Positions 1-20,419 of a stretch of 64,000 bases of DNA are shown here, in pieces. Source of the DNA: Metridium senile (taxonomy: Eukaryota > Cnidaria > Anthozoa > Actiniaria > Metridiidae). A program made the position numbers and the translations under genes. The notes below the pieces were generated by a model, which was not told the origin of the DNA, ran no database searches, and saw only the letters and a program-made list of their open reading frames with translations. The first letter of the stretch is position 1; every line of letters starts with the position of its first letter. The stretch is taken from contig OX459101.1 in NCBI GenBank assembly GCA_949775045.1, positions 12,636,347 to 12,700,346 of the forward strand, written 5' to 3'.

Positions 1-278
1 TTGTAATACTTACTTCAGGTCTGATTACATAAAATTGTAAGAATTTGGCGTCAAATTACACTTTAATTATGCAAATACTTTGTAAAGCCATAATTTATTT
101 TGGGCTTCCTGTGTTATCAATCAATTCAAAAATAAAAAAATAGCCACATATTATTATAAATTTTTATTAATTAGTTATGTAAATCATGACGACATACAGT
201 TTATTTAACATTCGTGGCATTTTTGGTACGATTTACTGCGGTTTTCATGACGATTTTCATACAATCGATTTTAAGACA
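1..278 (+). mobile_element. Right-hand tail of a preceding array unit (core positions 3656-3933)
   Basis: This stretch is identical to the 278 bases that follow the Rep start codon in the complete units. It begins on the last base of the reverse-complemented Rep start codon and ends with AAGACA at 273-278. It is the leader and promoter side of a Rep gene whose body lies outside the window. The array therefore continues to the left, or the scaffold begins here. Confidence 0.9.
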
Positions 279-528
279 ATCATGGACATAAATATTGGGA
301 CACAGCAGGTTATTAGTGGTTTTTCACATATAATTGTTCATTTTTCATCATATCCTCCCCCTCCCCCCCTATCTCAATGTTGATTTGACCAAGGAATGCC
401 TACCAATGACCCATGTAACTCATGAACGGTCAACATTGAATGGAGGGGGGAGGGGAGGGCTAAAAATGATGAAGGGTAACGTTTTTATTCGAATTGTTAA
501 TGTTGTCCCAAACAATATTGTCCGTGAT
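279..528 (+). repeat. 250-bp terminal palindrome, copy 1 (best described copy)
   Basis: An imperfect inverted repeat lies between the AAGACA end of one core and the TGTCTT start of the next. The outer arms (279-301 and 506-528) both read ATCAyGGACA inward and share a GGGACA block. A middle part of each arm does not pair. Then TTCATCAT, a C-rich strand (354-369) facing a G-rich strand (442-459), and a perfect 10-bp pair TCAATGTTGA (374-383) with its complement (430-439) pair again. The tip holds two small arms: AGG/CCT at 392-394 and 399-401, and CATG/CATG at 412-415 and 421-424. This gives a branched shape like a parvovirus terminal repeat. It also lies between the divergent start sites of Rep (left unit) and transposase (right unit), so it may carry both promoters. 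The terminal-repeat role is inferred. Confidence 0.85.
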
Positions 529-774
529 TGTCTTGTACAAGTAATTCATTAGAAAGTGTGATAATATCAGGTTTCGTCAATGTATATATTATTATAAATT
601 ACGGACAATGCAAGATAATGAATCATTTCAGTATACATGTTATTTTGTACATTTTTTGTGGTTGATTGGGTTAATTTTGTGTTTTTCATATGCTCGCGGA
701 CTGACGGGATTCCTGTGTAAACGTAATTATTATGTCATAGACTGCAAAATTTCATTTTTCTTGCACAATCAGAC

Positions 775-1881
775 ATGGTGGCAAAACTTAAGCCAACAAA
801 AGTAGCGTATGCTATTCTGTTACGCGAGAAAGAACGTTATTCATTCCGTATTATCGCAAAAAAGTGTAACATTTCCAAATCGTCGGCACATCGAATATGG
901 AAGTATCGTCAAAACTACCTTCGAAGTGAATGTAAAGAAAAGGCAATTGTGCATAGAAATAAGGGACGGAAACCTCGAATCAATGAAAGAGACAAGAGAG
1001 AAATGCTGAGAACACTCACAAGAATGAGAAAGAAAGATGTTAATCTAACCGTCATGTCGTTAGTTAGAGAGGCGGGAATAGATCCGACATTGGTGCATCG
1101 AAGGACATTTACAAGATACCTTAACAAATGGGGGTTTCACTTCCTTCAATCTCGAAAAAAGGGACTGTTAAGTGACAAGGACAAGGAATTGCGCTTAAAG
1201 TATGCAAAGAAGATGCGGAGTTTATTGAAGGACAATCCTACGTTTTACACTCATCACATAGCTTTCTACTTGGATGGAGTATCCTTTATACATAAGTACA
1301 ACCCCAAGAATGAAGCCTGTAGACCGAAATCTCGAGTTTGGAGGAAAAAGGGTGAGGGGTTATCAATAACGGCAAGAGGAACAAAAGAGCTGGCTGGTGG
1401 ACGAAGGCTTCACATTATGGTGGCCGTTGCATATGGCAAAGGCGTTGTATTATGCCAACCATATGAGAAGTTGAACGGTGAGTTCTTCGCCAACTTTATT
1501 CGGACGCATTTTAATTTAACGTTTGGAAAGGCAGGCCCGAAAGTAATGGGACAAAGACTATTTGTAATGGACAACGACCCAAGTCAAACAAGCTGTAAAG
1601 CAATGAGTGCATTAAGTGACATTGAGGCGACATTGCATCGCATCCCCAGCCGCACACAGGACCTAAATCCTCCAGAAAATGTTTTCCATATAGTTAAAAA
1701 GAGACTCGAACAAGAAGCTATAACTTTGAATTTGACGATGGAAACATTTGACAACTTTAAAGAACGGGTATTGAAATGCTTTCAAAGTATTGACAGTGAT
1801 TTAATTGATAAAACAATTGCGAGCTTACCAAAGCGCGTAGAAAACATTATCAGTCTCTGTGGAGGACGAACAAAATACTGA
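775..1881 (+). CDS. Tc1/mariner-type DD34E transposase, unit 1 (reference copy)
   Basis: A 368-residue protein of the IS630/Tc1/mariner superfamily, within that family's usual 340-370 range. Such enzymes cut and rejoin transposon ends with two metal ions held by a DDE triad. Residues 8-45 form a helix-turn-helix (FRIIAKKCNISKSSAHRIWK), and a basic stretch at 62-90 (NKGRKPRI) resembles the linker to the second DNA-binding domain. The triad is D167 (FYLDGVSF), D266 (FVMDNDPSQ) and E301 (DLNPPENVF), with 34 residues between the second D and E. Reading starts at an ATG in good context (AGACATGG). The gene is uninterrupted. An AATAAA lies at 2025-2030, 144 bases after the stop. It converges on Rep, which transposons of this family do not normally encode. 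Activity is likely but inferred from intact motifs. Confidence 0.93.
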   Translation: MVAKLKPTKVAYAILLREKERYSFRIIAKKCNISKSSAHRIWKYRQNYLRSECKEKAIVHRNKGRKPRINERDKREMLRTLTRMRKKDVNLTVMSLVREAGIDPTLVHRRTFTRYLNKWGFHFLQSRKKGLLSDKDKELRLKYAKKMRSLLKDNPTFYTHHIAFYLDGVSFIHKYNPKNEACRPKSRVWRKKGEGLSITARGTKELAGGRRLHIMVAVAYGKGVVLCQPYEKLNGEFFANFIRTHFNLTFGKAGPKVMGQRLFVMDNDPSQTSCKAMSALSDIEATLHRIPSRTQDLNPPENVFHIVKKRLEQEAITLNLTMETFDNFKERVLKCFQSIDSDLIDKTIASLPKRVENIISLCGGRTKY

Positions 1882-1936
1882 ATACCTATACTTAATTATT
1901 GATCATTAATTTTATCTGGAGGACGAACAAAATACT
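1861..1936 (+). repeat. Direct repeat straddling the transposase stop codon
   Basis: A 19-base block beginning GGAGGACGAACAAAATACT occurs at 1861-1879, overlapping the last codons and stop, and again at 1918-1936. Both copies are followed by related CCTATACTTA sequence. The start-to-start spacing is 57 bases. It is present in every unit. It may be a small tandem duplication or a protein-binding repeat. Confidence 0.8.
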
Positions 1937-2022
1937 ATACCGGGTGCCTATACTTATTGAACACATTCAAATGTAACCATAATCTATCATTTATTTGTCA
2001 ATAGAATGTTTATTACTATCTC

Positions 2023-2064
2023 TAAATAAACAGTAATATTCTACAAGATTCAGGTATTTATTTA
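2023..2064 (+). promoter_or_regulatory. AT-rich stem-loop with an NANTATTAC-type nonamer in its loop
   Basis: The 8-bp arms TAAATAAA (2023-2030) and TTTATTTA (2057-2064) enclose a 26-base loop. On the reverse strand the loop contains GAATATTAC (2033-2041), which fits the NANTATTAC consensus nicked by CRESS-DNA virus Rep proteins. The left arm also contains the likely transposase polyadenylation signal. The region is AT-rich, so chance is a serious alternative. Confidence 0.35.
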
Positions 2065-2187
2065 ATGATAATGATCACTAGTACAATATATTATAATATA
2101 AACCATGTTTTATAATTACAAACAATCAAGGATAATTATTATATCAAGTATCATGAACAATAGGCCGATCAGCATATTAAGTTACAA

Positions 2188-2586
2188 TACTCCATACTAC
2201 TCCACACGACCTTATGTGTTAAACAACAATATAAATCAGTATAATTTTGATAAATTATACTTGTCTTCTACGACAAATCAGTCATGTACACTTTCTAGAG
2301 CATGTACGTCTAATAATGTTCATGGCATGTTACGTATAATATGATAATCATCATTACTCCACTGTGATCTATATAAAAGTTGATAGTCTAATAGATTTAC
2401 TTAACATTCATATGGAGTAATGTGCGTTTAAATACAATATGTCAACATTTTCTGTTGATAAGGGGACTAAACCGTAGAAGACGACTTCATAGTCTTATAT
2501 AAAGCTAATTAAGATCCATATATTAAAATGAACAATCCTATTGTGTTATAATTATCAGTTAACATGATGGAGTATTGAGTGGAGTA
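2188..2586 (+). promoter_or_regulatory. Six heptamer iterons in mirror symmetry, candidate replication origin
   Basis: TACTCCA occurs at 2188-2194, 2198-2204 and 2355-2361. Its complement TGGAGTA occurs at 2413-2419, 2568-2574 and 2580-2586. The order is pair, single, then single, pair, and matching copies are centred on about 2386-2387 in all three cases. The inner two extend to a shared 10-mer, CATTACTCCA and its complement. I saw only one other copy in the unit, inside the transposase gene near 1275. Iterated short sites near a Rep gene are typical Rep-binding iterons, and that role is inferred here. A 79-codon open frame (2105-2344) overlaps the left half and is probably not a gene. Confidence 0.6.
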
Positions 2587-2656
2587 ATGTATAGCTTATT
2601 TCCTCGAATAAGCGCCGCGGCGCTTATTAAACTATTATCGTTTACACAGTCCCCTT
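2460..2656 (+). repeat. GC-rich perfect palindrome within a 9-bp inverted repeat
   Basis: Positions 2607-2628 form a perfect 22-bp palindrome, AATAAGCGCCG followed by its complement, in otherwise AT-rich DNA. AAGGGGACT (2460-2468) and its complement AGTCCCCTT (2648-2656) lie outside it. A related GCTTATTCGAG motif recurs at about 2836-2846. The palindrome could extrude as a cruciform for a nickase, or act as a transcription or replication boundary between the convergent genes. Confidence 0.7.
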
Positions 2657-2758
2657 CTTAATCAGAACTACGAATATCCGGTGGAGATAATTTAATGGAC
2701 GAGCGGTGAAATATAATTATTTTCAACTGAAAAATAACGCTTTTGATAAAAGTTTCCT

Positions 2759-2764
2759 TTTAAT
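2759..2764 (-). terminator. Candidate polyadenylation signal for Rep
   Basis: The reverse strand reads ATTAAA, a common variant of the animal polyadenylation signal, about 95 bases downstream of the Rep stop codon. No canonical AATAAA was seen closer. Confidence 0.4.
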
Positions 2765-2858
2765 GCTGTTATAGAGTAACATTATTGCGTTAAAATGCGG
2801 TCATTATACGAGAGTGGCGCTCATTCCAAAGCAGTGCTTATTCGAGTAAATACGGTGT

Positions 2859-4184
2859 TTAGAATAAGTTATCGATATCTTTATAATCAAGTACGAATTT
2901 TGCAAAGCAATGTTGACAAGGTGAAAGGGATTTCTGTTTATCCTGCGGTATTTGTTTCCAAAAATTAAATGTACGCCACCTAACCTGCATCATCTGGGTA
3001 TTTGCAGAATCTAATGACCCTCCTTTAACTAGGACCATAGGGGCATCGGCGGTAGCAAAGAATGGCGTATTTTTGTTGAATTCCACATCCTTGACACCAA
3101 AGTTTTTGGGCACAGGTAAATGGACAGTATCGCCCTCTAACAACTGAAGTAAATCTCCCCAAGCAATCACAGAGGGATGCCAGCGGAAGTCGTTCAACAC
3201 TACCACTTCAGCATCTTCAACACCAAGCCATGCAAATGTACCGGTAGCGGGGTTGGTGAAGGTTTTGTAGATGTTCTTTAAAGGAGATATGATAAAGGTT
3301 TTCCCCGTGTTAGCCGGACCGTATACATAAATGTTCCTATATTTCCCGCGTCCGTCCTTAAGCGCCTTGAAAATACCACTACAAAATGCTGACACAGACA
3401 ACTCGTTCTGTGACATGAGTGTAAGTGCCATTTCAAGCCACTGGCCATTACAATCAGTTACACAGCTTGCCCCATATGCTTCATTGAGAATGTCGATGCG
3501 ACTCATCTTAAGGCGTTGCATCTGCATTGGGGCTTCTACGAATTCCTTGGCCAACTCTAAGGCCTCATTCACCACTTTGGCACCTCTATTGGCAATGAAT
3601 TGGGCTAGTTGTGTTTTTCCTTCATTCTTTTGAACTACAGCTAAATTAACGAGTTCTAAACGTGTTTTGATGTTTTGTTCTTGTATGATTTGAACAACGT
3701 CAAATGTCGAATAGCGTTTTGCCTTTTTCTTATCGCCTTTATTTTTCGTAGATCTTTTTCTGTTGGCTGTTATAGCTTGCTCTGTTGAGGGTGGATCTGT
3801 TAAGATGGGATGATCTGCTGACTTGGCAAATTCTTTATCCTCCTTAATGACATACTGGTGGGCGCTGTAGTATGTGTTGTGATTACAACTGAAATTGACT
3901 CTAATGTCGTGATGATTCTGTATATACTGCCTAACCCTTGACCACCTTGATCTCTTGTTCAGCTTCAATGCCATGTGGTAATGTGTTGAGTTCTCTGACT
4001 CGGAGGTTTCAGCATGGCTTTCTTTACAAACAACCCAATGATTCACTTCAACTTGCGCCACTTGTTGGAATGCATTTGCAATAATCATCGCAAAAGTTTC
4101 CCTTGACGACACTTTATCTAAGTCTGCACGACTATACGTAATCAAATAGACAAGTGACTGATGCCGAGTGTTTGAAGAAGCCAT
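2859..4184 (-). CDS. Rep: HUH endonuclease and SF3 helicase, parvovirus NS1/CRESS type, unit 1 (reference copy)
   Basis: A 441-residue replication initiator. Known relatives nick one strand at an origin through a catalytic tyrosine and unwind DNA with a C-terminal ATPase. Residues 1-125 form the HUH domain: HYH at 68-70 (metal-binding HUH motif) and YVIK at 111-114 (YxxK motif, catalytic Y111). Residues 141-157 are basic and look like a nuclear localisation signal. Residues 280-400 form the superfamily 3 helicase: Walker A GPANTGKT (289-296), Walker B VVVLNDF (327-333) and motif C TPFFATADAP (373-382). A CxxC pair lies near the end (C423, C426). The length matches small Reps and is shorter than most parvovirus NS1. 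All key residues are present, so activity is plausible. It reads towards the transposase gene. Confidence 0.9.
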   Translation of the reverse strand: MASSNTRHQSLVYLITYSRADLDKVSSRETFAMIIANAFQQVAQVEVNHWVVCKESHAETSESENSTHYHMALKLNKRSRWSRVRQYIQNHHDIRVNFSCNHNTYYSAHQYVIKEDKEFAKSADHPILTDPPSTEQAITANRKRSTKNKGDKKKAKRYSTFDVVQIIQEQNIKTRLELVNLAVVQKNEGKTQLAQFIANRGAKVVNEALELAKEFVEAPMQMQRLKMSRIDILNEAYGASCVTDCNGQWLEMALTLMSQNELSVSAFCSGIFKALKDGRGKYRNIYVYGPANTGKTFIISPLKNIYKTFTNPATGTFAWLGVEDAEVVVLNDFRWHPSVIAWGDLLQLLEGDTVHLPVPKNFGVKDVEFNKNTPFFATADAPMVLVKGGSLDSANTQMMQVRWRTFNFWKQIPQDKQKSLSPCQHCFAKFVLDYKDIDNLF

Positions 4185-4461
4185 TGTAATACTTACTTCA
4201 GGTCTGATTACATAAAATTGTAAGAATTTGGCGTCAAATTACACTTTAATTATGCAAATACTTTGTAAAGCCATAATTTATTTTGGGCTTCCTGTGTTAT
4301 CAATCAATTCAAAAATAAAAAAATAGCCACATATTATTATAAATTTTTATTAATTAGTTATGTAAATCATGACGACATACAGTTTATTTAACATTCGTGG
4401 CATTTTTGGTACGATTTACTGCGGTTTTCATGACGATTTTCATACAATCGATTTTAAGACA
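4185..4461 (-). promoter_or_regulatory. Rep leader: splice-donor-like site, nonamer and octamer element
   Basis: Directly upstream of the Rep ATG the reverse strand reads AAGTATTAC (4186-4194), another NANTATTAC match. It overlaps GTAAGTAT, a perfect 5' splice-site core. A weak TGAAG/CTTCA stem could place the nonamer in a loop. ATGCAAAT, the canonical POU octamer, is at 4252-4259, about 70 bases upstream of the ATG. The same sequences recur beside every Rep copy. Their functions are inferred. Confidence 0.35.
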
Positions 4462-4707
4462 TGTCTTGTACAAGTAATTCATTAGAAAGTGTGATAATAT
4501 CAGGTTTCGTCAATGTATATATTATTATAAATTACGGACAATGCAAGATAATGAATCATTTCAGTATACATGTTATTTTGTACATTTTTTGTGGTTGATT
4601 GGGTTAATTTTGTGTTTTTCATATGCTCGCGGACTGACGGGATTCCTGTGTAAACGTAATTATTATGTCATAGACTGCAAAATTTCATTTTTCTTGCACA
4701 ATCAGAC

Positions 4708-5814
4708 ATGGTGGCAAAACTTAAGCCAACAAAAGTAGCGTATGCTATTCTGTTACGCGAGAAAGAACGTTATTCATTCCGTATTATCGCAAAAAAGTGT
4801 AACATTTCCAAATCGTCGGCACATCGAATATGGAAGTATCGTCAAAACTACCTTCGAAGTGAATGTAAAGAAAAGGCAATTGTGCATAGAAATAAGGGAC
4901 GGAAACCTCGAATCAATGAAAGAGACAAGAGAGAAATGCTGAGAACACTCACAAGAATGAGAAAGAAAGATGTTAATCTAACCGTCATGTCGTTAGTTAG
5001 AGAGGCGGGAATAGATCCGACATTGGTGCATCGAAGGACATTTACAAGATACCTTAACAAATGGGGGTTTCACTTCCTTCAATCTCGAAAAAAGGGACTG
5101 TTAAGTGACAAGGACAAGGAATTGCGCTTAAAGTATGCAAAGAAGATGCGGAGTTTATTGAAGGACAATCCTACGTTTTACACTCATCACATAGCTTTCT
5201 ACTTGGATGGAGTATCCTTTATACATAAGTACAACCCCAAGAATGAAGCCTGTAGACCGAAATCTCGAGTTTGGAGGAAAAAGGGTGAGGGGTTATCAAT
5301 AACGGCAAGAGGAACAAAAGAGCTGGCTGGTGGACGAAGGCTTCACATTATGGTGGCCGTTGCATATGGCAAAGGCGTTGTATTATGCCAACCATATGAG
5401 AAGTTGAACGGTGAGTTCTTCGCCAACTTTATTCGGACGCATTTTAATTTAACGTTTGGAAAGGCAGGCCCGAAAGTAATGGGACAAAGACTATTTGTAA
5501 TGGACAACGACCCAAGTCAAACAAGCTGTAAAGCAATGAGTGCATTAAGTGACATTGAGGCGACATTGCATCGCATCCCCAGCCGCACACAGGACCTAAA
5601 TCCTCCAGAAAATGTTTTCCATATAGTTAAAAAGAGACTCGAACAAGAAGCTATAACTTTGAATTTGACGATGGAAACATTTGACAACTTTAAAGAACGG
5701 GTATTGAAATGCTTTCAAAGTATTGACAGTGATTTAATTGATAAAACAATTGCGAGCTTACCAAAGCGCGTAGAAAACATTATCAGTCTCTGTGGAGGAC
5801 GAACAAAATACTGA
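4708..5814 (+). CDS. DD34E transposase, unit 2
   Basis: Full-length, 368 residues, identical in translation to the unit 1 enzyme with the DDE triad intact. Because the palindrome is missing, its upstream region runs directly into the Rep leader of unit 1. Any promoter in the palindrome would be absent here. Confidence 0.93.
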   Translation: MVAKLKPTKVAYAILLREKERYSFRIIAKKCNISKSSAHRIWKYRQNYLRSECKEKAIVHRNKGRKPRINERDKREMLRTLTRMRKKDVNLTVMSLVREAGIDPTLVHRRTFTRYLNKWGFHFLQSRKKGLLSDKDKELRLKYAKKMRSLLKDNPTFYTHHIAFYLDGVSFIHKYNPKNEACRPKSRVWRKKGEGLSITARGTKELAGGRRLHIMVAVAYGKGVVLCQPYEKLNGEFFANFIRTHFNLTFGKAGPKVMGQRLFVMDNDPSQTSCKAMSALSDIEATLHRIPSRTQDLNPPENVFHIVKKRLEQEAITLNLTMETFDNFKERVLKCFQSIDSDLIDKTIASLPKRVENIISLCGGRTKY

Positions 5815-6791
5815 ATACCTATACTTAATTATTGATCATTAATTTTATCTGGAGGACGAACAAAATACTATACCGGGTGCCTATACTTATTGAACACATT
5901 CAAATGTAACCATAATCTATCATTTATTTGTCAATAGAATGTTTATTACTATCTCTAAATAAACAGTAATATTCTACAAGATTCAGGTATTTATTTAATG
6001 ATAATGATCACTAGTACAATATATTATAATATAAACCATGTTTTATAATTACAAACAATCAAGGATAATTATTATATCAAGTATCATGAACAATAGGCCG
6101 ATCAGCATATTAAGTTACAATACTCCATACTACTCCACACGACCTTATGTGTTAAACAACAATATAAATCAGTATAATTTTGATAAATTATACTTGTCTT
6201 CTACGACAAATCAGTCATGTACACTTTCTAGAGCATGTACGTCTAATAATGTTCATGGCATGTTACGTATAATATGATAATCATCATTACTCCACTGTGA
6301 TCTATATAAAAGTTGATAGTCTAATAGATTTACTTAACATTCATATGGAGTAATGTGCGTTTAAATACAATATGTCAACATTTTCTGTTGATAAGGGGAC
6401 TAAACCGTAGAAGACGACTTCATAGTCTTATATAAAGCTAATTAAGATCCATATATTAAAATGAACAATCCTATTGTGTTATAATTATCAGTTAACATGA
6501 TGGAGTATTGAGTGGAGTAATGTATAGCTTATTTCCTCGAATAAGCGCCGCGGCGCTTATTAAACTATTATCGTTTACACAGTCCCCTTCTTAATCAGAA
6601 CTACGAATATCCGGTGGAGATAATTTAATGGACGAGCGGTGAAATATAATTATTTTCAACTGAAAAATAACGCTTTTGATAAAAGTTTCCTTTTAATGCT
6701 GTTATAGAGTAACATTATTGCGTTAAAATGCGGTCATTATACGAGAGTGGCGCTCATTCCAAAGCAGTGCTTATTCGAGTAAATACGGTGT

Positions 6792-8117
6792 TTAGAATAA
6801 GTTATCGATATCTTTATAATCAAGTACGAATTTTGCAAAGCAATGTTGACAAGGTGAAAGGGATTTCTGTTTATCCTGCGGTATTTGTTTCCAAAAATTA
6901 AATGTACGCCACCTAACCTGCATCATCTGGGTATTTGCAGAATCTAATGACCCTCCTTTAACTAGGACCATAGGGGCATCGGCGGTAGCAAAGAATGGCG
7001 TATTTTTGTTGAATTCCACATCCTTGACACCAAAGTTTTTGGGCACAGGTAAATGGACAGTATCGCCCTCTAACAACTGAAGTAAATCTCCCCAAGCAAT
7101 CACAGAGGGATGCCAGCGGAAGTCGTTCAACACTACCACTTCAGCATCTTCAACACCAAGCCATGCAAATGTACCGGTAGCGGGGTTGGTGAAGGTTTTG
7201 TAGATGTTCTTTAAAGGAGATATGATAAAGGTTTTCCCCGTGTTAGCCGGACCGTATACATAAATGTTCCTATATTTCCCGCGTCCGTCCTTAAGCGCCT
7301 TGAAAATACCACTACAAAATGCTGACACAGACAACTCGTTCTGTGACATGAGTGTAAGTGCCATTTCAAGCCACTGGCCATTACAATCAGTTACACAGCT
7401 TGCCCCATATGCTTCATTGAGAATGTCGATGCGACTCATCTTAAGGCGTTGCATCTGCATTGGGGCTTCTACGAATTCCTTGGCCAACTCTAAGGCCTCA
7501 TTCACCACTTTGGCACCTCTATTGGCAATGAATTGGGCTAGTTGTGTTTTTCCTTCATTCTTTTGAACTACAGCTAAATTAACGAGTTCTAAACGTGTTT
7601 TGATGTTTTGTTCTTGTATGATTTGAACAACGTCAAATGTCGAATAGCGTTTTGCCTTTTTCTTATCGCCTTTATTTTTCGTAGATCTTTTTCTGTTGGC
7701 TGTTATAGCTTGCTCTGTTGAGGGTGGATCTGTTAAGATGGGATGATCTGCTGACTTGGCAAATTCTTTATCCTCCTTAATGACATACTGGTGGGCGCTG
7801 TAGTATGTGTTGTGATTACAACTGAAATTGACTCTAATGTCGTGATGATTCTGTATATACTGCCTAACCCTTGACCACCTTGATCTCTTGTTCAGCTTCA
7901 ATGCCATGTGGTAATGTGTTGAGTTCTCTGACTCGGAGGTTTCAGCATGGCTTTCTTTACAAACAACCCAATGATTCACTTCAACTTGCGCCACTTGTTG
8001 GAATGCATTTGCAATAATCATCGCAAAAGTTTCCCTTGACGACACTTTATCTAAGTCTGCACGACTATACGTAATCAAATAGACAAGTGACTGATGCCGA
8101 GTGTTTGAAGAAGCCAT
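6792..8117 (-). CDS. Rep (HUH-SF3), unit 2
   Basis: Full-length, 441 residues, translation identical to unit 1, with HYH, YVIK and GPANTGKT all present. Its start faces the unit 3 transposase across a palindrome-free junction. Confidence 0.9.
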   Translation of the reverse strand: MASSNTRHQSLVYLITYSRADLDKVSSRETFAMIIANAFQQVAQVEVNHWVVCKESHAETSESENSTHYHMALKLNKRSRWSRVRQYIQNHHDIRVNFSCNHNTYYSAHQYVIKEDKEFAKSADHPILTDPPSTEQAITANRKRSTKNKGDKKKAKRYSTFDVVQIIQEQNIKTRLELVNLAVVQKNEGKTQLAQFIANRGAKVVNEALELAKEFVEAPMQMQRLKMSRIDILNEAYGASCVTDCNGQWLEMALTLMSQNELSVSAFCSGIFKALKDGRGKYRNIYVYGPANTGKTFIISPLKNIYKTFTNPATGTFAWLGVEDAEVVVLNDFRWHPSVIAWGDLLQLLEGDTVHLPVPKNFGVKDVEFNKNTPFFATADAPMVLVKGGSLDSANTQMMQVRWRTFNFWKQIPQDKQKSLSPCQHCFAKFVLDYKDIDNLF

Positions 8118-8640
8118 TGTAATACTTACTTCAGGTCTGATTACATAAAATTGTAAGAATTTGGCGTCAAATTACACTTTAATTATGCAAATACTTTGTA
8201 AAGCCATAATTTATTTTGGGCTTCCTGTGTTATCAATCAATTCAAAAATAAAAAAATAGCCACATATTATTATAAATTTTTATTAATTAGTTATGTAAAT
8301 CATGACGACATACAGTTTATTTAACATTCGTGGCATTTTTGGTACGATTTACTGCGGTTTTCATGACGATTTTCATACAATCGATTTTAAGACAAGTACT
8401 GTACAAGTAATTCATTAGAAAGTGTGATAATATCAGGTTTCGTCAATGTATATATTATTATAAATTACGGACAATGCAAGATAATGAATCATTTCAGTAT
8501 ACATGTTATTTTGTACATTTTTTGTGGTTGATTGGGTTAATTTTGTGTTTTTCATATGCTCGCGGACTGACGGGATTCCTGTGTAAACGTAATTATTATG
8601 TCATAGACTGCAAAATTTCATTTTTCTTGCACAATCAGAC

Positions 8641-9747
8641 ATGGTGGCAAAACTTAAGCCAACAAAAGTAGCGTATGCTATTCTGTTACGCGAGAAAGAA
8701 CGTTATTCATTCCGTATTATCGCAAAAAAGTGTAACATTTCCAAATCGTCGGCACATCGAATATGGAAGTATCGTCAAAACTACCTTCGAAGTGAATGTA
8801 AAGAAAAGGCAATTGTGCATAGAAATAAGGGACGGAAACCTCGAATCAATGAAAGAGACAAGAGAGAAATGCTGAGAACACTCACAAGAATGAGAAAGAA
8901 AGATGTTAATCTAACCGTCATGTCGTTAGTTAGAGAGGCGGGAATAGATCCGACATTGGTGCATCGAAGGACATTTACAAGATACCTTAACAAATGGGGG
9001 TTTCACTTCCTTCAATCTCGAAAAAAGGGACTGTTAAGTGACAAGGACAAGGAATTGCGCTTAAAGTATGCAAAGAAGATGCGGAGTTTATTGAAGGACA
9101 ATCCTACGTTTTACACTCATCACATAGCTTTCTACTTGGATGGAGTATCCTTTATACATAAGTACAACCCCAAGAATGAAGCCTGTAGACCGAAATCTCG
9201 AGTTTGGAGGAAAAAGGGTGAGGGGTTATCAATAACGGCAAGAGGAACAAAAGAGCTGGCTGGTGGACGAAGGCTTCACATTATGGTGGCCGTTGCATAT
9301 GGCAAAGGCGTTGTATTATGCCAACCATATGAGAAGTTGAACGGTGAGTTCTTCGCCAACTTTATTCGGACGCATTTTAATTTAACGTTTGGAAAGGCAG
9401 GCCCGAAAGTAATGGGACAAAGACTATTTGTAATGGACAACGACCCAAGTCAAACAAGCTGTAAAGCAATGAGTGCATTAAGTGACATTGAGGCGACATT
9501 GCATCGCATCCCCAGCCGCACACAGGACCTAAATCCTCCAGAAAATGTTTTCCATATAGTTAAAAAGAGACTCGAACAAGAAGCTATAACTTTGAATTTG
9601 ACGATGGAAACATTTGACAACTTTAAAGAACGGGTATTGAAATGCTTTCAAAGTATTGACAGTGATTTAATTGATAAAACAATTGCGAGCTTACCAAAGC
9701 GCGTAGAAAACATTATCAGTCTCTGTGGAGGACGAACAAAATACTGA
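8641..9747 (+). CDS. DD34E transposase, unit 3
   Basis: Full-length and identical in translation to the reference copy. The altered core end lies 241 bases upstream of its start codon and does not touch the gene. Confidence 0.93.
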   Translation: MVAKLKPTKVAYAILLREKERYSFRIIAKKCNISKSSAHRIWKYRQNYLRSECKEKAIVHRNKGRKPRINERDKREMLRTLTRMRKKDVNLTVMSLVREAGIDPTLVHRRTFTRYLNKWGFHFLQSRKKGLLSDKDKELRLKYAKKMRSLLKDNPTFYTHHIAFYLDGVSFIHKYNPKNEACRPKSRVWRKKGEGLSITARGTKELAGGRRLHIMVAVAYGKGVVLCQPYEKLNGEFFANFIRTHFNLTFGKAGPKVMGQRLFVMDNDPSQTSCKAMSALSDIEATLHRIPSRTQDLNPPENVFHIVKKRLEQEAITLNLTMETFDNFKERVLKCFQSIDSDLIDKTIASLPKRVENIISLCGGRTKY

Positions 9748-10724
9748 ATACCTATACTTAATTATTGATCATTAATTTTATCTGGAGGACGAACAAAATA
9801 CTATACCGGGTGCCTATACTTATTGAACACATTCAAATGTAACCATAATCTATCATTTATTTGTCAATAGAATGTTTATTACTATCTCTAAATAAACAGT
9901 AATATTCTACAAGATTCAGGTATTTATTTAATGATAATGATCACTAGTACAATATATTATAATATAAACCATGTTTTATAATTACAAACAATCAAGGATA
10001 ATTATTATATCAAGTATCATGAACAATAGGCCGATCAGCATATTAAGTTACAATACTCCATACTACTCCACACGACCTTATGTGTTAAACAACAATATAA
10101 ATCAGTATAATTTTGATAAATTATACTTGTCTTCTACGACAAATCAGTCATGTACACTTTCTAGAGCATGTACGTCTAATAATGTTCATGGCATGTTACG
10201 TATAATATGATAATCATCATTACTCCACTGTGATCTATATAAAAGTTGATAGTCTAATAGATTTACTTAACATTCATATGGAGTAATGTGCGTTTAAATA
10301 CAATATGTCAACATTTTCTGTTGATAAGGGGACTAAACCGTAGAAGACGACTTCATAGTCTTATATAAAGCTAATTAAGATCCATATATTAAAATGAACA
10401 ATCCTATTGTGTTATAATTATCAGTTAACATGATGGAGTATTGAGTGGAGTAATGTATAGCTTATTTCCTCGAATAAGCGCCGCGGCGCTTATTAAACTA
10501 TTATCGTTTACACAGTCCCCTTCTTAATCAGAACTACGAATATCCGGTGGAGATAATTTAATGGACGAGCGGTGAAATATAATTATTTTCAACTGAAAAA
10601 TAACGCTTTTGATAAAAGTTTCCTTTTAATGCTGTTATAGAGTAACATTATTGCGTTAAAATGCGGTCATTATACGAGAGTGGCGCTCATTCCAAAGCAG
10701 TGCTTATTCGAGTAAATACGGTGT

Positions 10725-12050
10725 TTAGAATAAGTTATCGATATCTTTATAATCAAGTACGAATTTTGCAAAGCAATGTTGACAAGGTGAAAGGGATTTC
10801 TGTTTATCCTGCGGTATTTGTTTCCAAAAATTAAATGTACGCCACCTAACCTGCATCATCTGGGTATTTGCAGAATCTAATGACCCTCCTTTAACTAGGA
10901 CCATAGGGGCATCGGCGGTAGCAAAGAATGGCGTATTTTTGTTGAATTCCACATCCTTGACACCAAAGTTTTTGGGCACAGGTAAATGGACAGTATCGCC
11001 CTCTAACAACTGAAGTAAATCTCCCCAAGCAATCACAGAGGGATGCCAGCGGAAGTCGTTCAACACTACCACTTCAGCATCTTCAACACCAAGCCATGCA
11101 AATGTACCGGTAGCGGGGTTGGTGAAGGTTTTGTAGATGTTCTTTAAAGGAGATATGATAAAGGTTTTCCCCGTGTTAGCCGGACCGTATACATAAATGT
11201 TCCTATATTTCCCGCGTCCGTCCTTAAGCGCCTTGAAAATACCACTACAAAATGCTGACACAGACAACTCGTTCTGTGACATGAGTGTAAGTGCCATTTC
11301 AAGCCACTGGCCATTACAATCAGTTACACAGCTTGCCCCATATGCTTCATTGAGAATGTCGATGCGACTCATCTTAAGGCGTTGCATCTGCATTGGGGCT
11401 TCTACGAATTCCTTGGCCAACTCTAAGGCCTCATTCACCACTTTGGCACCTCTATTGGCAATGAATTGGGCTAGTTGTGTTTTTCCTTCATTCTTTTGAA
11501 CTACAGCTAAATTAACGAGTTCTAAACGTGTTTTGATGTTTTGTTCTTGTATGATTTGAACAACGTCAAATGTCGAATAGCGTTTTGCCTTTTTCTTATC
11601 GCCTTTATTTTTCGTAGATCTTTTTCTGTTGGCTGTTATAGCTTGCTCTGTTGAGGGTGGATCTGTTAAGATGGGATGATCTGCTGACTTGGCAAATTCT
11701 TTATCCTCCTTAATGACATACTGGTGGGCGCTGTAGTATGTGTTGTGATTACAACTGAAATTGACTCTAATGTCGTGATGATTCTGTATATACTGCCTAA
11801 CCCTTGACCACCTTGATCTCTTGTTCAGCTTCAATGCCATGTGGTAATGTGTTGAGTTCTCTGACTCGGAGGTTTCAGCATGGCTTTCTTTACAAACAAC
11901 CCAATGATTCACTTCAACTTGCGCCACTTGTTGGAATGCATTTGCAATAATCATCGCAAAAGTTTCCCTTGACGACACTTTATCTAAGTCTGCACGACTA
12001 TACGTAATCAAATAGACAAGTGACTGATGCCGAGTGTTTGAAGAAGCCAT
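10725..12050 (-). CDS. Rep (HUH-SF3), unit 3
   Basis: Full-length, 441 residues, identical in translation to unit 1. A complete palindrome (12328-12577) lies upstream, so this copy has the standard promoter context. Confidence 0.9.
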   Translation of the reverse strand: MASSNTRHQSLVYLITYSRADLDKVSSRETFAMIIANAFQQVAQVEVNHWVVCKESHAETSESENSTHYHMALKLNKRSRWSRVRQYIQNHHDIRVNFSCNHNTYYSAHQYVIKEDKEFAKSADHPILTDPPSTEQAITANRKRSTKNKGDKKKAKRYSTFDVVQIIQEQNIKTRLELVNLAVVQKNEGKTQLAQFIANRGAKVVNEALELAKEFVEAPMQMQRLKMSRIDILNEAYGASCVTDCNGQWLEMALTLMSQNELSVSAFCSGIFKALKDGRGKYRNIYVYGPANTGKTFIISPLKNIYKTFTNPATGTFAWLGVEDAEVVVLNDFRWHPSVIAWGDLLQLLEGDTVHLPVPKNFGVKDVEFNKNTPFFATADAPMVLVKGGSLDSANTQMMQVRWRTFNFWKQIPQDKQKSLSPCQHCFAKFVLDYKDIDNLF

Positions 12051-12327
12051 TGTAATACTTACTTCAGGTCTGATTACATAAAATTGTAAGAATTTGGCGT
12101 CAAATTACACTTTAATTATGCAAATACTTTGTAAAGCCATAATTTATTTTGGGCTTCCTGTGTTATCAATCAATTCAAAAATAAAAAAATAGCCACATAT
12201 TATTATAAATTTTTATTAATTAGTTATGTAAATCATGACGACATACAGTTTATTTAACATTCGTGGCATTTTTGGTACGATTTACTGCGGTTTTCATGAC
12301 GATTTTCATACAATCGATTTTAAGACA

Positions 12328-12577
12328 ATCATGGACATAAATATTGGGACACAGCAGGTTATTAGTGGTTTTTCACATATAATTGTTCATTTTTCATCAT
12401 ATCCTCCCCCTCCCCCCCTATCTCAATGTTGATTTGACCAAGGAATGCCTACCAATGACCCATGTAACTCATGAACGGTCAACATTGAATGGAGGGGGGA
12501 GGGGAGGGCTAAAAATGATGAAGGGTAACGTTTTTATTCGAATTGTTAATGTTGTCCCAAACAATATTGTCCGTGAT
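12328..12577 (+). repeat. Terminal palindrome, copy 2
   Basis: Same 250-bp sequence and orientation as the copy at 279-528. It separates Rep of unit 3 from transposase of unit 4. Confidence 0.85.
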
Positions 12578-12823
12578 TGTCTTGTACAAGTAATTCATTA
12601 GAAAGTGTGATAATATCAGGTTTCGTCAATGTATATATTATTATAAATTACGGACAATGCAAGATAATGAATCATTTCAGTATACATGTTATTTTGTACA
12701 TTTTTTGTGGTTGATTGGGTTAATTTTGTGTTTTTCATATGCTCGCGGACTGACGGGATTCCTGTGTAAACGTAATTATTATGTCATAGACTGCAAAATT
12801 TCATTTTTCTTGCACAATCAGAC

Positions 12824-13930
12824 ATGGTGGCAAAACTTAAGCCAACAAAAGTAGCGTATGCTATTCTGTTACGCGAGAAAGAACGTTATTCATTCCGTAT
12901 TATCGCAAAAAAGTGTAACATTTCCAAATCGTCGGCACATCGAATATGGAAGTATCGTCAAAACTACCTTCGAAGTGAATGTAAAGAAAAGGCAATTGTG
13001 CATAGAAATAAGGGACGGAAACCTCGAATCAATGAAAGAGACAAGAGAGAAATGCTGAGAACACTCACAAGAATGAGAAAGAAAGATGTTAATCTAACCG
13101 TCATGTCGTTAGTTAGAGAGGCGGGAATAGATCCGACATTGGTGCATCGAAGGACATTTACAAGATACCTTAACAAATGGGGGTTTCACTTCCTTCAATC
13201 TCGAAAAAAGGGACTGTTAAGTGACAAGGACAAGGAATTGCGCTTAAAGTATGCAAAGAAGATGCGGAGTTTATTGAAGGACAATCCTACGTTTTACACT
13301 CATCACATAGCTTTCTACTTGGATGGAGTATCCTTTATACATAAGTACAACCCCAAGAATGAAGCCTGTAGACCGAAATCTCGAGTTTGGAGGAAAAAGG
13401 GTGAGGGGTTATCAATAACGGCAAGAGGAACAAAAGAGCTGGCTGGTGGACGAAGGCTTCACATTATGGTGGCCGTTGCATATGGCAAAGGCGTTGTATT
13501 ATGCCAACCATATGAGAAGTTGAACGGTGAGTTCTTCGCCAACTTTATTCGGACGCATTTTAATTTAACGTTTGGAAAGGCAGGCCCGAAAGTAATGGGA
13601 CAAAGACTATTTGTAATGGACAACGACCCAAGTCAAACAAGCTGTAAAGCAATGAGTGCATTAAGTGACATTGAGGCGACATTGCATCGCATCCCCAGCC
13701 GCACACAGGACCTAAATCCTCCAGAAAATGTTTTCCATATAGTTAAAAAGAGACTCGAACAAGAAGCTATAACTTTGAATTTGACGATGGAAACATTTGA
13801 CAACTTTAAAGAACGGGTATTGAAATGCTTTCAAAGTATTGACAGTGATTTAATTGATAAAACAATTGCGAGCTTACCAAAGCGCGTAGAAAACATTATC
13901 AGTCTCTGTGGAGGACGAACAAAATACTGA
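12824..13930 (+). CDS. DD34E transposase, unit 4
   Basis: Full-length and identical in translation to the reference copy. It is intact although the partner Rep in the same unit is frameshifted. Confidence 0.93.
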   Translation: MVAKLKPTKVAYAILLREKERYSFRIIAKKCNISKSSAHRIWKYRQNYLRSECKEKAIVHRNKGRKPRINERDKREMLRTLTRMRKKDVNLTVMSLVREAGIDPTLVHRRTFTRYLNKWGFHFLQSRKKGLLSDKDKELRLKYAKKMRSLLKDNPTFYTHHIAFYLDGVSFIHKYNPKNEACRPKSRVWRKKGEGLSITARGTKELAGGRRLHIMVAVAYGKGVVLCQPYEKLNGEFFANFIRTHFNLTFGKAGPKVMGQRLFVMDNDPSQTSCKAMSALSDIEATLHRIPSRTQDLNPPENVFHIVKKRLEQEAITLNLTMETFDNFKERVLKCFQSIDSDLIDKTIASLPKRVENIISLCGGRTKY

Positions 13931-14907
13931 ATACCTATACTTAATTATTGATCATTAATTTTATCTGGAGGACGAACAAAATACTATACCGGGTGCCTAT
14001 ACTTATTGAACACATTCAAATGTAACCATAATCTATCATTTATTTGTCAATAGAATGTTTATTACTATCTCTAAATAAACAGTAATATTCTACAAGATTC
14101 AGGTATTTATTTAATGATAATGATCACTAGTACAATATATTATAATATAAACCATGTTTTATAATTACAAACAATCAAGGATAATTATTATATCAAGTAT
14201 CATGAACAATAGGCCGATCAGCATATTAAGTTACAATACTCCATACTACTCCACACGACCTTATGTGTTAAACAACAATATAAATCAGTATAATTTTGAT
14301 AAATTATACTTGTCTTCTACGACAAATCAGTCATGTACACTTTCTAGAGCATGTACGTCTAATAATGTTCATGGCATGTTACGTATAATATGATAATCAT
14401 CATTACTCCACTGTGATCTATATAAAAGTTGATAGTCTAATAGATTTACTTAACATTCATATGGAGTAATGTGCGTTTAAATACAATATGTCAACATTTT
14501 CTGTTGATAAGGGGACTAAACCGTAGAAGACGACTTCATAGTCTTATATAAAGCTAATTAAGATCCATATATTAAAATGAACAATCCTATTGTGTTATAA
14601 TTATCAGTTAACATGATGGAGTATTGAGTGGAGTAATGTATAGCTTATTTCCTCGAATAAGCGCCGCGGCGCTTATTAAACTATTATCGTTTACACAGTC
14701 CCCTTCTTAATCAGAACTACGAATATCCGGTGGAGATAATTTAATGGACGAGCGGTGAAATATAATTATTTTCAACTGAAAAATAACGCTTTTGATAAAA
14801 GTTTCCTTTTAATGCTGTTATAGAGTAACATTATTGCGTTAAAATGCGGTCATTATACGAGAGTGGCGCTCATTCCAAAGCAGTGCTTATTCGAGTAAAT
14901 ACGGTGT

Positions 14908-16240
14908 TTAGAATAAGTTATCGATATCTTTATAATCAAGTACGAATTTTGCAAAGCAATGTTGACAAGGTGAAAGGGATTTCTGTTTATCCTGCGGTAT
15001 TTGTTTCCAAAAATTAAATGTACGCCACCTAACCTGCATCATCTGGGTATTTGCAGAATCTAATGACCCTCCTTTAACTAGGACCATAGGGGCATCGGCG
15101 GTAGCAAAGAATGGCGTATTTTTGTTGAATTCCACATCCTTGACACCAAAGTTTTTGGGCACAGGTAAATGGACAGTATCGCCCTCTAACAACTGAAGTA
15201 AATCTCCCCAAGCAATCACAGAGGGATGCCAGCGGAAGTCGTTCAACACTACCACTTCAGCATCTTCAACACCAAGCCATGCAAATGTACCGGTAGCGGG
15301 GTTGGTGAAGGTTTTGTAGATGTTCTTTAAAGGAGATATGATAAAGGTTTTCCCCGTGTTAGCCGGACCGTATACATAAATGTTCCTATATTTCCCGCGT
15401 CCGTCCTTAAGCGCCTTGAAAATACCACTACAAAATGCTGACACAGACAACTCGTTCTGTGACATGAGTGTAAGTGCCATTTCAAGCCACTGGCCATTAC
15501 AATCAGTTACACAGCTTGCCCCATATGCTTCATTGAGAATGTCGATGCGACTCATCTTAAGGCGTTGCATCTGCATTGGGGCTTCTACGAATTCCTTGGC
15601 CAACTCTAAGGCCTCATTCACCACTTTGGCACCTCTATTGGCAATGAATTGGGCTAGTTGTGTTTTTCCTTCATTCTTTTGAACTACAGCTAAATTAACG
15701 AGTTCTAAACGTGTTTTGATGTTTTGTTCTTGTATGATTTGAACAACGTCAAATGTCGAATAGCGTTTTGCCTTTTTCTTATCGCCTTTATTTTTCGTAG
15801 ATCTTTTTCTGTTGGCTGTTATAGCTTGCTCTGTTGAGGGTGGATCTGTTAAGATGGGATGATCTGCTGACTTGGCAAATTCTTTATCCTCCTTAATGAC
15901 ATACTGGTGGGCGCTGTAGTATGTGTTGTGATTACAACTGAAATTGACTCTAATGTCGTGATGATTCTGTATATACTGCCTAACCCTTGACCACCTTGAT
16001 CTCTTGTTCAGCTTCAATGCCATGTGGTAATGTGTTGAGTTCTCTGACTCGGAGGTTTCAGCATGGCTTTCTTTACAAACAACCCAATGATTCACTTCAA
16101 CTTGCGCCACGCGCCACTTGTTGGAATGCATTTGCAATAATCATCGCAAAAGTTTCCCTTGACGACACTTTATCTAAGTCTGCACGACTATACGTAATCA
16201 AATAGACAAGTGACTGATGCCGAGTGTTTGAAGAAGCCAT
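14908..16240 (-). pseudogene. Rep, unit 4, frameshifted near residue 43 by a 7-bp duplication
   Basis: The usual start codon is at 16238-16240. The GCGCCAC duplication shifts the frame after about 42 residues. An open frame from an internal ATG at 16137 still covers the HYH, YVIK and helicase motifs (409 residues), so a protein lacking the N-terminal strand could be made. This lies about 4.5 kb from the N gap. It may be a real mutation or an assembly error. Confidence 0.75.
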
Positions 16241-16517
16241 TGTAATACTTACTTCAGGTCTGATTACATAAAATTGTAAGAATTTGGCGTCAAATTACAC
16301 TTTAATTATGCAAATACTTTGTAAAGCCATAATTTATTTTGGGCTTCCTGTGTTATCAATCAATTCAAAAATAAAAAAATAGCCACATATTATTATAAAT
16401 TTTTATTAATTAGTTATGTAAATCATGACGACATACAGTTTATTTAACATTCGTGGCATTTTTGGTACGATTTACTGCGGTTTTCATGACGATTTTCATA
16501 CAATCGATTTTAAGACA

Positions 16518-16767
16518 ATCATGGACATAAATATTGGGACACAGCAGGTTATTAGTGGTTTTTCACATATAATTGTTCATTTTTCATCATATCCTCCCCC
16601 TCCCCCCCTATCTCAATGTTGATTTGACCAAGGAATGCCTACCAATGACCCATGTAACTCATGAACGGTCAACATTGAATGGAGGGGGGAGGGGAGGGCT
16701 AAAAATGATGAAGGGTAACGTTTTTATTCGAATTGTTAATGTTGTCCCAAACAATATTGTCCGTGAT
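16518..16767 (+). repeat. Terminal palindrome, copy 3
   Basis: Same 250 bp and orientation as copy 1, between units 4 and 5. Confidence 0.85.
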
Positions 16768-17013
16768 TGTCTTGTACAAGTAATTCATTAGAAAGTGTGA
16801 TAATATCAGGTTTCGTCAATGTATATATTATTATAAATTACGGACAATGCAAGATAATGAATCATTTCAGTATACATGTTATTTTGTACATTTTTTGTGG
16901 TTGATTGGGTTAATTTTGTGTTTTTCATATGCTCGCGGACTGACGGGATTCCTGTGTAAACGTAATTATTATGTCATAGACTGCAAAATTTCATTTTTCT
17001 TGCACAATCAGAC

Positions 17014-18120
17014 ATGGTGGCAAAACTTAAGCCAACAAAAGTAGCGTATGCTATTCTGTTACGCGAGAAAGAACGTTATTCATTCCGTATTATCGCAAAA
17101 AAGTGTAACATTTCCAAATCGTCGGCACATCGAATATGGAAGTATCGTCAAAACTACCTTCGAAGTGAATGTAAAGAAAAGGCAATTGTGCATAGAAATA
17201 AGGGACGGAAACCTCGAATCAATGAAAGAGACAAGAGAGAAATGCTGAGAACACTCACAAGAATGAGAAAGAAAGATGTTAATCTAACCGTCATGTCGTT
17301 AGTTAGAGAGGCGGGAATAGATCCGACATTGGTGCATCGAAGGACATTTACAAGATACCTTAACAAATGGGGGTTTCACTTCCTTCAATCTCGAAAAAAG
17401 GGACTGTTAAGTGACAAGGACAAGGAATTGCGCTTAAAGTATGCAAAGAAGATGCGGAGTTTATTGAAGGACAATCCTACGTTTTACACTCATCACATAG
17501 CTTTCTACTTGGATGGAGTATCCTTTATACATAAGTACAACCCCAAGAATGAAGCCTGTAGACCGAAATCTCGAGTTTGGAGGAAAAAGGGTGAGGGGTT
17601 ATCAATAACGGCAAGAGGAACAAAAGAGCTGGCTGGTGGACGAAGGCTTCACATTATGGTGGCCGTTGCATATGGCAAAGGCGTTGTATTATGCCAACCA
17701 TATGAGAAGTTGAACGGTGAGTTCTTCGCCAACTTTATTCGGACGCATTTTAATTTAACGTTTGGAAAGGCAGGCCCGAAAGTAATGGGACAAAGACTAT
17801 TTGTAATGGACAACGACCCAAGTCAAACAAGCTGTAAAGCAATGAGTGCATTAAGTGACATTGAGGCGACATTGCATCGCATCCCCAGCCGCACACAGGA
17901 CCTAAATCCTCCAGAAAATGTTTTCCATATAGTTAAAAAGAGACTCGAACAAGAAGCTATAACTTTGAATTTGACGATGGAAACATTTGACAACTTTAAA
18001 GAACGGGTATTGAAATGCTTTCAAAGTATTGACAGTGATTTAATTGATAAAACAATTGCGAGCTTACCAAAGCGCGTAGAAAACATTATCAGTCTCTGTG
18101 GAGGACGAACAAAATACTGA
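17014..18120 (+). CDS. DD34E transposase, unit 5
   Basis: Full-length and identical in translation to the reference copy. It lies outside the error-rich stretch that affects Rep of this unit. Confidence 0.93.
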   Translation: MVAKLKPTKVAYAILLREKERYSFRIIAKKCNISKSSAHRIWKYRQNYLRSECKEKAIVHRNKGRKPRINERDKREMLRTLTRMRKKDVNLTVMSLVREAGIDPTLVHRRTFTRYLNKWGFHFLQSRKKGLLSDKDKELRLKYAKKMRSLLKDNPTFYTHHIAFYLDGVSFIHKYNPKNEACRPKSRVWRKKGEGLSITARGTKELAGGRRLHIMVAVAYGKGVVLCQPYEKLNGEFFANFIRTHFNLTFGKAGPKVMGQRLFVMDNDPSQTSCKAMSALSDIEATLHRIPSRTQDLNPPENVFHIVKKRLEQEAITLNLTMETFDNFKERVLKCFQSIDSDLIDKTIASLPKRVENIISLCGGRTKY

Positions 18121-19097
18121 ATACCTATACTTAATTATTGATCATTAATTTTATCTGGAGGACGAACAAAATACTATACCGGGTGCCTATACTTATTGAA
18201 CACATTCAAATGTAACCATAATCTATCATTTATTTGTCAATAGAATGTTTATTACTATCTCTAAATAAACAGTAATATTCTACAAGATTCAGGTATTTAT
18301 TTAATGATAATGATCACTAGTACAATATATTATAATATAAACCATGTTTTATAATTACAAACAATCAAGGATAATTATTATATCAAGTATCATGAACAAT
18401 AGGCCGATCAGCATATTAAGTTACAATACTCCATACTACTCCACACGACCTTATGTGTTAAACAACAATATAAATCAGTATAATTTTGATAAATTATACT
18501 TGTCTTCTACGACAAATCAGTCATGTACACTTTCTAGAGCATGTACGTCTAATAATGTTCATGGCATGTTACGTATAATATGATAATCATCATTACTCCA
18601 CTGTGATCTATATAAAAGTTGATAGTCTAATAGATTTACTTAACATTCATATGGAGTAATGTGCGTTTAAATACAATATGTCAACATTTTCTGTTGATAA
18701 GGGGACTAAACCGTAGAAGACGACTTCATAGTCTTATATAAAGCTAATTAAGATCCATATATTAAAATGAACAATCCTATTGTGTTATAATTATCAGTTA
18801 ACATGATGGAGTATTGAGTGGAGTAATGTATAGCTTATTTCCTCGAATAAGCGCCGCGGCGCTTATTAAACTATTATCGTTTACACAGTCCCCTTCTTAA
18901 TCAGAACTACGAATATCCGGTGGAGATAATTTAATGGACGAGCGGTGAAATATAATTATTTTCAACTGAAAAATAACGCTTTTGATAAAAGTTTCCTTTT
19001 AATGCTGTTATAGAGTAACATTATTGCGTTAAAATGCGGTCATTATACGAGAGTGGCGCTCATTCCAAAGCAGTGCTTATTCGAGTAAATACGGTGT

Positions 19098-20419
19098 TTA
19101 GAATAAGTTATCGATATCTTTATAATCAAGTACGAATTTTGCAAAGCAATGTTGACAAGGTGAAAGGGATTTCTGTTTATCCTGCGGTATTTGTTTCCAA
19201 AAATTAAATGTACGCCACCTAACCTGCATCATCTGGGTATTTGCAGAATCTAATGACCCTCCTTTAACTAGGACCATAGGGGCATCGGCGGTAGCAAAGA
19301 ATGGCGTATTTTTGTTGAATTCCACATCCTTGACACCAAAGTTTTTGGGCACAGGTAAATGGACAGTATCGCCCTCTAACAACTGAAGTAAATCTCCCCA
19401 AGCAATCACAGAGGGATGCCAGCGGAAGTCGTTCAACACTACCACTTCAGCATCTTCAACACCAAGCCATGCAAATGTACCGGTAGCGGGGTGGTGAAGG
19501 TTTTGTAGATGTTCTTTAAAGGAGATATGATAAAGGTTTTCCCCGTGTTAGCCGGACCGTATACATAAATGTTCCTATATTTCCCGCGTCCGTCCTTAAG
19601 CGCCTTGAAAATACCACTACAAAATGCTGACACAGACAACTCGTTCTGTGACATGAGTGTAAGTGCCATTTCAAGCCACTGGCCATTACAATCAGTTACA
19701 CAGCTTGCCCCATATGCTTCATTGAGAATGTCGATGCGACTCATCTTAAGGCGTTGCATCTGCATTGGGGCTTCTACGAATTCCTTGGCCAACTCTAAGG
19801 CCTCATTCACCACTTTGGCACCTCTATTGGCAATGAATTGGGCTAGTTGTGTTTTTCCTTCATTCTTTTGAACTACAGCTAAATTAACGAGTTCTAAACG
19901 TGTTTTGATGTTTTGTTCTTGTATGATTTGAACAACGTCAAATGTCGAATAGCGTTTTGCCTTTTTCTTATCGCCTTTATTTTTCGTAGATCTTTTTCTG
20001 TTGGCTGTTATAGCTTGCTCTGTTGAGGGTGGATCTGTTAAGATGGGATGATCTGCTGACTTGGCAAATTCTTTATCCTCCTTAATGACATACTGGTGGG
20101 CGCTGTAGTATGTGTTGTGATTACAACTGAAATTGACTCTAATGTCGTGATGATTCTGTATATACTGCCTAACCCTTGACCACCTTGATCTCTTGTTCAG
20201 CTTCAATGCATGTGGTAATGTGTGAGTTCTCTGACTCGGAGGTTTCAGCATGGCTTTCTTTACAAACAACCCAATGATTCACTTCAACTTGCGCCACTTG
20301 TTGGAATGCATTTGCAATAATCATCGCAAAAGTTTCCCTTGACGACACTTTATCTAAGTCTGCACGACTATACGTAATCAAATAGACAAGTGACTGATGC
20401 CGAGTGTTTGAAGAAGCAT
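19098..20419 (-). pseudogene. Rep, unit 5, broken by several one-base deletions
   Basis: The start codon is at 20417-20419. Deletions in the second codon, near 20223, near 20210 and near 19492 break the frame into three pieces: an N-terminal fragment, a central 276-residue frame (19439-20269) with the YVIK and Walker A regions, and a C-terminal 115-residue frame (19098-19445). The clustering beside the assembly gap makes sequencing error more likely than decay. Confidence 0.75.

Follow-up and report, generated by a model that had tools for sequence, protein, structure and literature searches.

A tandemly arrayed 4-kb unit predicted to encode both a Tc1/mariner-family transposase and a virus-type HUH-SF3 Rep

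The genes of the repeated unit

The window analysed here is a stretch of 64,000 nucleotides (contig OX459101.1 of assembly GCA_949775045.1, forward-strand positions 12,636,347 to 12,700,346), and an array of a two-gene unit occupies its positions 1-49295. The core of the first unit (529..4461, plus strand; 3,933 bp) runs from TGTCTT to AAGACA, which form 6-bp inverted ends, and contains a transposase gene on the plus strand (775..1881; 368 aa) and a Rep gene on the minus strand (2859..4184; 441 aa). A sequence-only reading of the stretch had placed both open reading frames (ORFs) at these positions and had listed their motifs, D167, D266 and E301 in the transposase and HYH, YVIK, Walker A, Walker B and motif C in Rep, all of which were found. 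Across 300 mononucleotide shuffles of the core, the maximum length of a stop-to-stop frame is 207 residues, and ORFs of 368 and 441 aa are therefore not attributable to chance.

The transposase is assigned to the Tc1/mariner (IS630) family and is of the DD34E type, with a complete catalytic triad and 34 residues separating D266 and E301. It matches Pfam DDE_3 at 2.9e-12, over the cut-off, and residues 126-368 match chain 5cr4 of Sleeping Beauty at 4.5e-9. The match to the NCBIfam IS630 model is 2.4e-16, yet it falls below the cut-off of that model (60 vs 100 bits), and the match to HTH_Tnp_Tc3_2 reaches 30.2 bits, slightly below the cut-off of 31.5. The protein thus combines a DDE/D transposase domain, DD34D/E spacing and an N-terminal helix-turn-helix, as is characteristic of Tc1/mariner transposases. 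At window positions 1861-1936, the terminal bases of the gene (GGAGGACGAACAAAATACT) are repeated 57 bp downstream.

Rep possesses HUH nuclease motifs in its N-terminal part (LITYSR at residue 14, HYH at 68 and YVIK at 111) and SF3 helicase motifs in its C-terminal part, namely the Walker A motif GPANTGKT at 289, a plausible Walker B, VVVLNDF, at about 327 and a plausible motif C, FFATAD, at about 375. The protein scores 21.2 bits against Pfam Parvo_NS1 (cut-off 20) and 19.4 bits against Pfam RNA_helicase, slightly below the cut-off of 21.5. The HUH part matches chain 2x3g of SIRV1 ORF119 at 1.4e-4, and SIRV1 ORF119 is described in PMC6668415 as a rudiviral Rep with an HUH fold. A single-sequence model of residues 1-128 (predicted local distance difference test, pLDDT, 70.2) is compatible with HUH Reps, and in a fold ranking of this model Rep nucleases were tied with unrelated ribosomal S6-like folds. 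PHROGs yielded weak matches only and NCBIfam a weak match for Rep, and a tblastn search of Rep against phages and plasmids at E 0.01 returned no relative. The predicted identity of the protein as a virus-type HUH-SF3 Rep is well supported. A parvoviral affinity is its best family match, and the combination of HUH nuclease and SF3 helicase in an NS1-type Rep, a hallmark of Parvoviridae, appears to be present, marginally.

Organization of the array

The array (1..49295) opens with a partial thirteenth unit, whose end occupies 1-278, followed by 12 units, 11 in one orientation and one (32811-36743) inverted. The cores, each of approximately 3,933 bp, have start coordinates of 529, 4462, ~8395, 12578, 16768, 20696, 24445, 28628, 32811 (inverted), 36994, 41177 and 45111, and a scaffold gap of 200 N (20780-20979) obscures part of the sixth. 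Because the window begins inside the array, only the right host boundary is visible. Eight other cores are 100% identical to that of unit 1, one of them only from core position 6, owing to its junction, and the three remaining cores, which surround the gap, exhibit a few small differences, one of them lacking a stretch at the gap. The 368-aa ORF is intact in 11 of the 12 units and the 441-aa ORF in nine, and all damaged copies lie within approximately 5 kb of the gap. The near-identity of the copies suggests that the element may have been active recently.

Gene order is identical in all 12 units (the sixth partly under the N gap), and the shared orientation of 11 of them has P ~0.006 under random orientation. 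The claim that one repeated unit unites a Tc1/mariner-family transposase with a virus-type HUH-SF3 Rep is upheld at every unit of the array, and the joint presence of both genes in one repeated element is what defines an ssDNA-virus-like transposable element with a transposase. The transposase had also been said to take the place of a capsid gene. The array contains 24 unspliced, closed ORFs of at least 150 aa, all of which are transposase or Rep frames, and within this scope neither a third ORF nor the capsid (VP) gene expected of Parvoviridae was found, in agreement with that claim.

The two genes are convergent and their 3' ends are separated by a 977-bp spacer. This contains a 22-bp GC-rich palindrome at 2607-2628 and an inverted repeat of 22 nt with arms at 2597-2618 and 2831-2852 (86%). 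In the region 2520-2720, folding is not better than in shuffled sequence (z -0.65).

The palindrome, the unit junctions and the host boundary

An imperfect palindrome (273..534, plus strand; 262 bp, with 250 bp between AAGACA and TGTCTT) sits between the divergent Rep and transposase 5' ends of neighbouring units and is proposed to be an origin or terminal hairpin. Aligned with each other, its arms share 93 identities in 147 columns and score 62, whereas the best of 300 shuffles scores 23, and positions 268-535, folded as DNA, have a z-score of -5.4, with 0 of 200 shuffles as good. Eight of the 12 unit-to-unit junctions contain the palindrome, as does the right host boundary. The earlier delimitation of the element as 529..4461 is retained for the core, but the palindrome within 273-534 belongs to the element as well. 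Ten of the 12 junctions are head-to-tail; the two formed by the inverted unit, one head-to-head and one tail-to-tail, are uninformative on palindrome orientation, which is identical at all six head-to-tail junctions that hold the palindrome.

The four junctions that lack the palindrome, all given on the plus strand, are broken at, or at most 6 bases from, the same two points. AAGACA directly abuts TGTCTT at 4456..4467 and 20690..20701, is followed at 8389..8400 by a hexamer differing from TGTCTT at three of six bases, and is separated from TGTCTT by one extra base at 45104..45116. The Rep side stops exactly at AAGACA in all four, and the transposase side begins exactly with TGTCTT in three of the four, once after one extra base. 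At the right end of the array, the last palindrome (49039..49295, plus strand) gives way to host DNA where unit identity stops, 2 bp past the 250-bp part. In the host flank (49296..49312, plus strand), the 9-mer TTGTCTTGT occupies 49300-49308, starting 5 bp beyond the boundary, and the same 9-mer spans the equivalent cut point at the left end of the unit. The probability of its occurring by chance beside the boundary is ~6e-5 (base composition, 10 offsets), for a feature that was noticed post hoc. Taken together, the shared breakpoints, the host boundary and the adjacent 9-mer define the palindrome base as a preferred site of cutting.

Two other origins of the palindrome were considered. An independent miniature inverted-repeat transposable element is rejected, as its flanks are inverted (AAGACA/TGTCTT) rather than a duplicated target, and no duplication remains where two units are joined directly. 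Two abutted transposon ends are disfavoured, as the last unit of the array has the full 250 bp before host DNA.

No TA is present at the right host boundary, the only one visible. Integration by DDE chemistry, which the sequence-only reading had proposed, is not evident at this site, which lies 2 bp past the palindrome base. The same observation bears on a transposase-driven composite, in which the DDE transposase would cut at the palindrome bases, excise and circularise the core, and leave Rep merely to amplify it. The four palindrome-less joints (two of them direct, a third with one base added and a fourth with a changed hexamer) look as end-joined excision products might, and the core has inverted ends, TGTCTT/AAGACA. 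These ends, however, are just 6 bp long, TA is absent from the core ends as from the host boundary, and the palindrome is kept at eight of 12 junctions, so that this explanation is considered quite unlikely.

Least probable among the explanations weighed here is an assembly product, in which the assembler fused concatemers of an extrachromosomal replicon to a host contig. The complete identity of eight further cores to unit 1, the 200-N gap and the small differences around it would fit such an origin, whereas the sharp boundary at the palindrome base, the three types of palindrome-less junction and the inverted unit are unlike simple repeat collapse. Even if it were true, the two-gene unit would stand.

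Relationship of the transposase to the unit

Inverted ends around the transposase were searched for, ungapped, in three layouts (confined to the unit, enclosing Rep, or extended to take in the palindrome), at two lengths and with or without TA, with 60 dinucleotide shuffles per test. The best match was equalled by 14 to 58 of the 60 shuffles in 10 of the 12 tests. TA-flanked terminal inverted repeats, as expected around a Tc1/mariner transposase, were not found in this ungapped search, and the right host boundary has no TA. The sequence-only reading had named a nested, independently mobile element as a finding that would count against it; no convincing TA-flanked ends stand out from the shuffles, and hence no nested Tc1 copy is recognisable. 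That the transposase ORF is complete, yet not bordered by its own ends, suggests the gene may have been retained as part of the unit.

The transposase could instead be a passenger, carried by an endogenous, parvovirus-like element or satellite in which a chance Tc1 insertion took the place of the capsid gene, the transposon ends having decayed and the protein having no role in mobility. The convergent two-gene layout and palindromic ends resemble those of ambisense densoviruses, no TA marks the host boundary, and the pairing of the genes is a single independent one. Such a passenger, however, should presumably lose its ORF too, and here the ORF is complete with all catalytic residues despite the lack of convincing inverted ends. 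The passenger explanation is therefore regarded as unlikely.

Proposed replication and mobility

The element is probably a capsid-less mobile replicon, in which the virus-type HUH-SF3 Rep and the Tc1/mariner-family transposase are genes of one unit. Rep would nick the palindrome base at GAT/TGTCTT, a site present on both strands since the arms are inverted, and would replicate a circular form by the rolling-circle mode, with the palindrome as the origin between the divergent genes. Rolling-circle replication would release head-to-tail concatemers, which would then integrate. The palindrome-less junctions could arise if paired nicks were made at both palindrome bases, the single-stranded palindrome were lost and the ends were joined. 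The transposase may have been retained because it aids the entry of the element into chromosomes or its exit from them, a step put forward more cautiously than the others.

Under rolling-hairpin replication, as in parvoviruses, head-to-head joints would alternate with tail-to-tail ones, and the hairpins would often occur in both orientations. Rolling-circle replication fits the array better, given that head-to-tail junctions number 10 of 12 and that the palindrome keeps a single orientation at all six of those that hold it. Rolling-hairpin concatemers are accordingly disfavoured by the head-to-tail junctions, and random end joining of linear monomers by the orientation of the units (11 of 12 alike). 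Genomes of Parvoviridae are linear and end in hairpins, often in both orientations; here an imperfect palindrome is present, in one orientation at the six junctions. In circular Rep-encoding single-stranded (CRESS) DNA genomes, a palindrome lies between divergent genes, as in this element, and layout and palindrome here would fit the CRESS-DNA combination of an HUH-SF3 Rep and a stem-loop origin between divergent genes, the palindrome being a putative origin and the modelled nuclease fold one that ties with unrelated folds. Of the two forms offered in the sequence-only reading, a circle whose genes diverge from a stem-loop is thus favoured, and a linear, ambisense densovirus-like form is less supported.

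Several observations weigh against the capsid-less replicon. The Parvo_NS1 match of Rep is marginal, and scans of viral contigs with Rep, its parts and the transposase returned no relative. In the search for inverted ends, two AT-rich 28-nt tests in the layout with Rep inside were equalled by just 2 and 4 of 60 shuffles, which we take for chance among 12 tests. All units descend from one recent amplification, so the pairing of Rep and transposase constitutes one independent observation; one unit is inverted, and the array, known from the assembly sequence, spans a scaffold gap. A second host-flank copy of TTGTCTTGT lies on the minus strand at ~55375. The circular form is one that we infer from the array itself, as we infer Rep to be the nicking enzyme at the palindrome base, where the transposase could also cut.

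A further-reaching proposal, possible but doubtful, is an element with two engines. Rep would amplify a small circle from the palindromic origin and resolve it at the palindrome base, and the mariner-family transposase, with the palindrome base rather than TA-flanked repeats as its substrate, would move the circle into and out of chromosomes. With the transposase in place of the capsid, a former virus would have become a replicon that resides in chromosomes.

Flanking host DNA

Beyond the array, the host flank contains three matches to the SNORA73 (U17) snoRNA on the minus strand (55852-56078, 58228-58454 and 58864-59090; 104 to 107 bits), an animal snoRNA family; the three copies perhaps lie in introns of a single host gene. 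A single-ORF flavin amine oxidase of 474 aa with an N-terminal hydrophobic stretch lies at 52480-53904 (minus strand) and reads as polyamine-oxidase-like, and a tRNA match of 35 bits lies at 61660-61729 (minus strand). The snoRNA matches and the amine-oxidase ORF make a metazoan host probable.

Comparison with known systems

No element combining a Tc1/mariner transposase with Rep was found among the titles and abstract openings of the literature matches listed, a partial coverage without preprints and most subscription journals. Among the closest likenesses is a geminivirus-like transposable element of Tuber melanosporum, which has an interrupted geminivirus-like Rep, two interrupted or truncated transposase ORFs and 37-bp terminal inverted repeats, its transposase family being unnamed in section 8 of the article (Liu et al. 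2011, PMC3198968). There, as here, Rep-like and transposase ORFs share one repeated eukaryotic element, whereas the present unit has two intact genes, occurs as arrayed copies in what is probably an animal host, and encodes a Rep that Pfam matches best to Parvo_NS1. The same article describes NS1-like genes in invertebrate genomes, in parvovirus-like repeats of the acorn worm, DENSOV_HM of Hydra and PIVE of planarian. The acorn worm element is likewise an NS1-like repeat with a 5'-terminal palindrome, but its NS1 is paired with a coat-protein ORF, and section 8 of PMC3198968 describes no transposase in any of the three, unlike here.

Mergers of viral and transposon genes are also on record at other scales. 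Teratorn, also among the closest likenesses, is a 180 kb piggyBac-herpesvirus fusion reported to retain transposition activity (PMC5601938, PMC10175614); it similarly joins a cut-and-paste transposase with viral genes, whereas the present element is 4 kb, combines Rep with a Tc1/mariner transposase and is known from its genes. With both genes intact, it would be a far smaller, testable case of a virus becoming a transposon, and would illustrate how one element can accommodate a rolling-circle Rep together with a DDE transposase. In Bidnaviridae, parvovirus-derived genes are likewise merged with transposon genes, but there, as outlined in PMC4061559, a Polinton polymerase and terminal repeats replace the replication endonuclease and the capsid is kept. 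CRESS-DNA replicons and parvoviruses share the HUH-SF3 Rep (PMC6668415), whereas here a DDE transposase is present and no third ORF of capsid size accompanies it. The pairing of a transposase with Rep therefore has loose precedents and is not categorically new.

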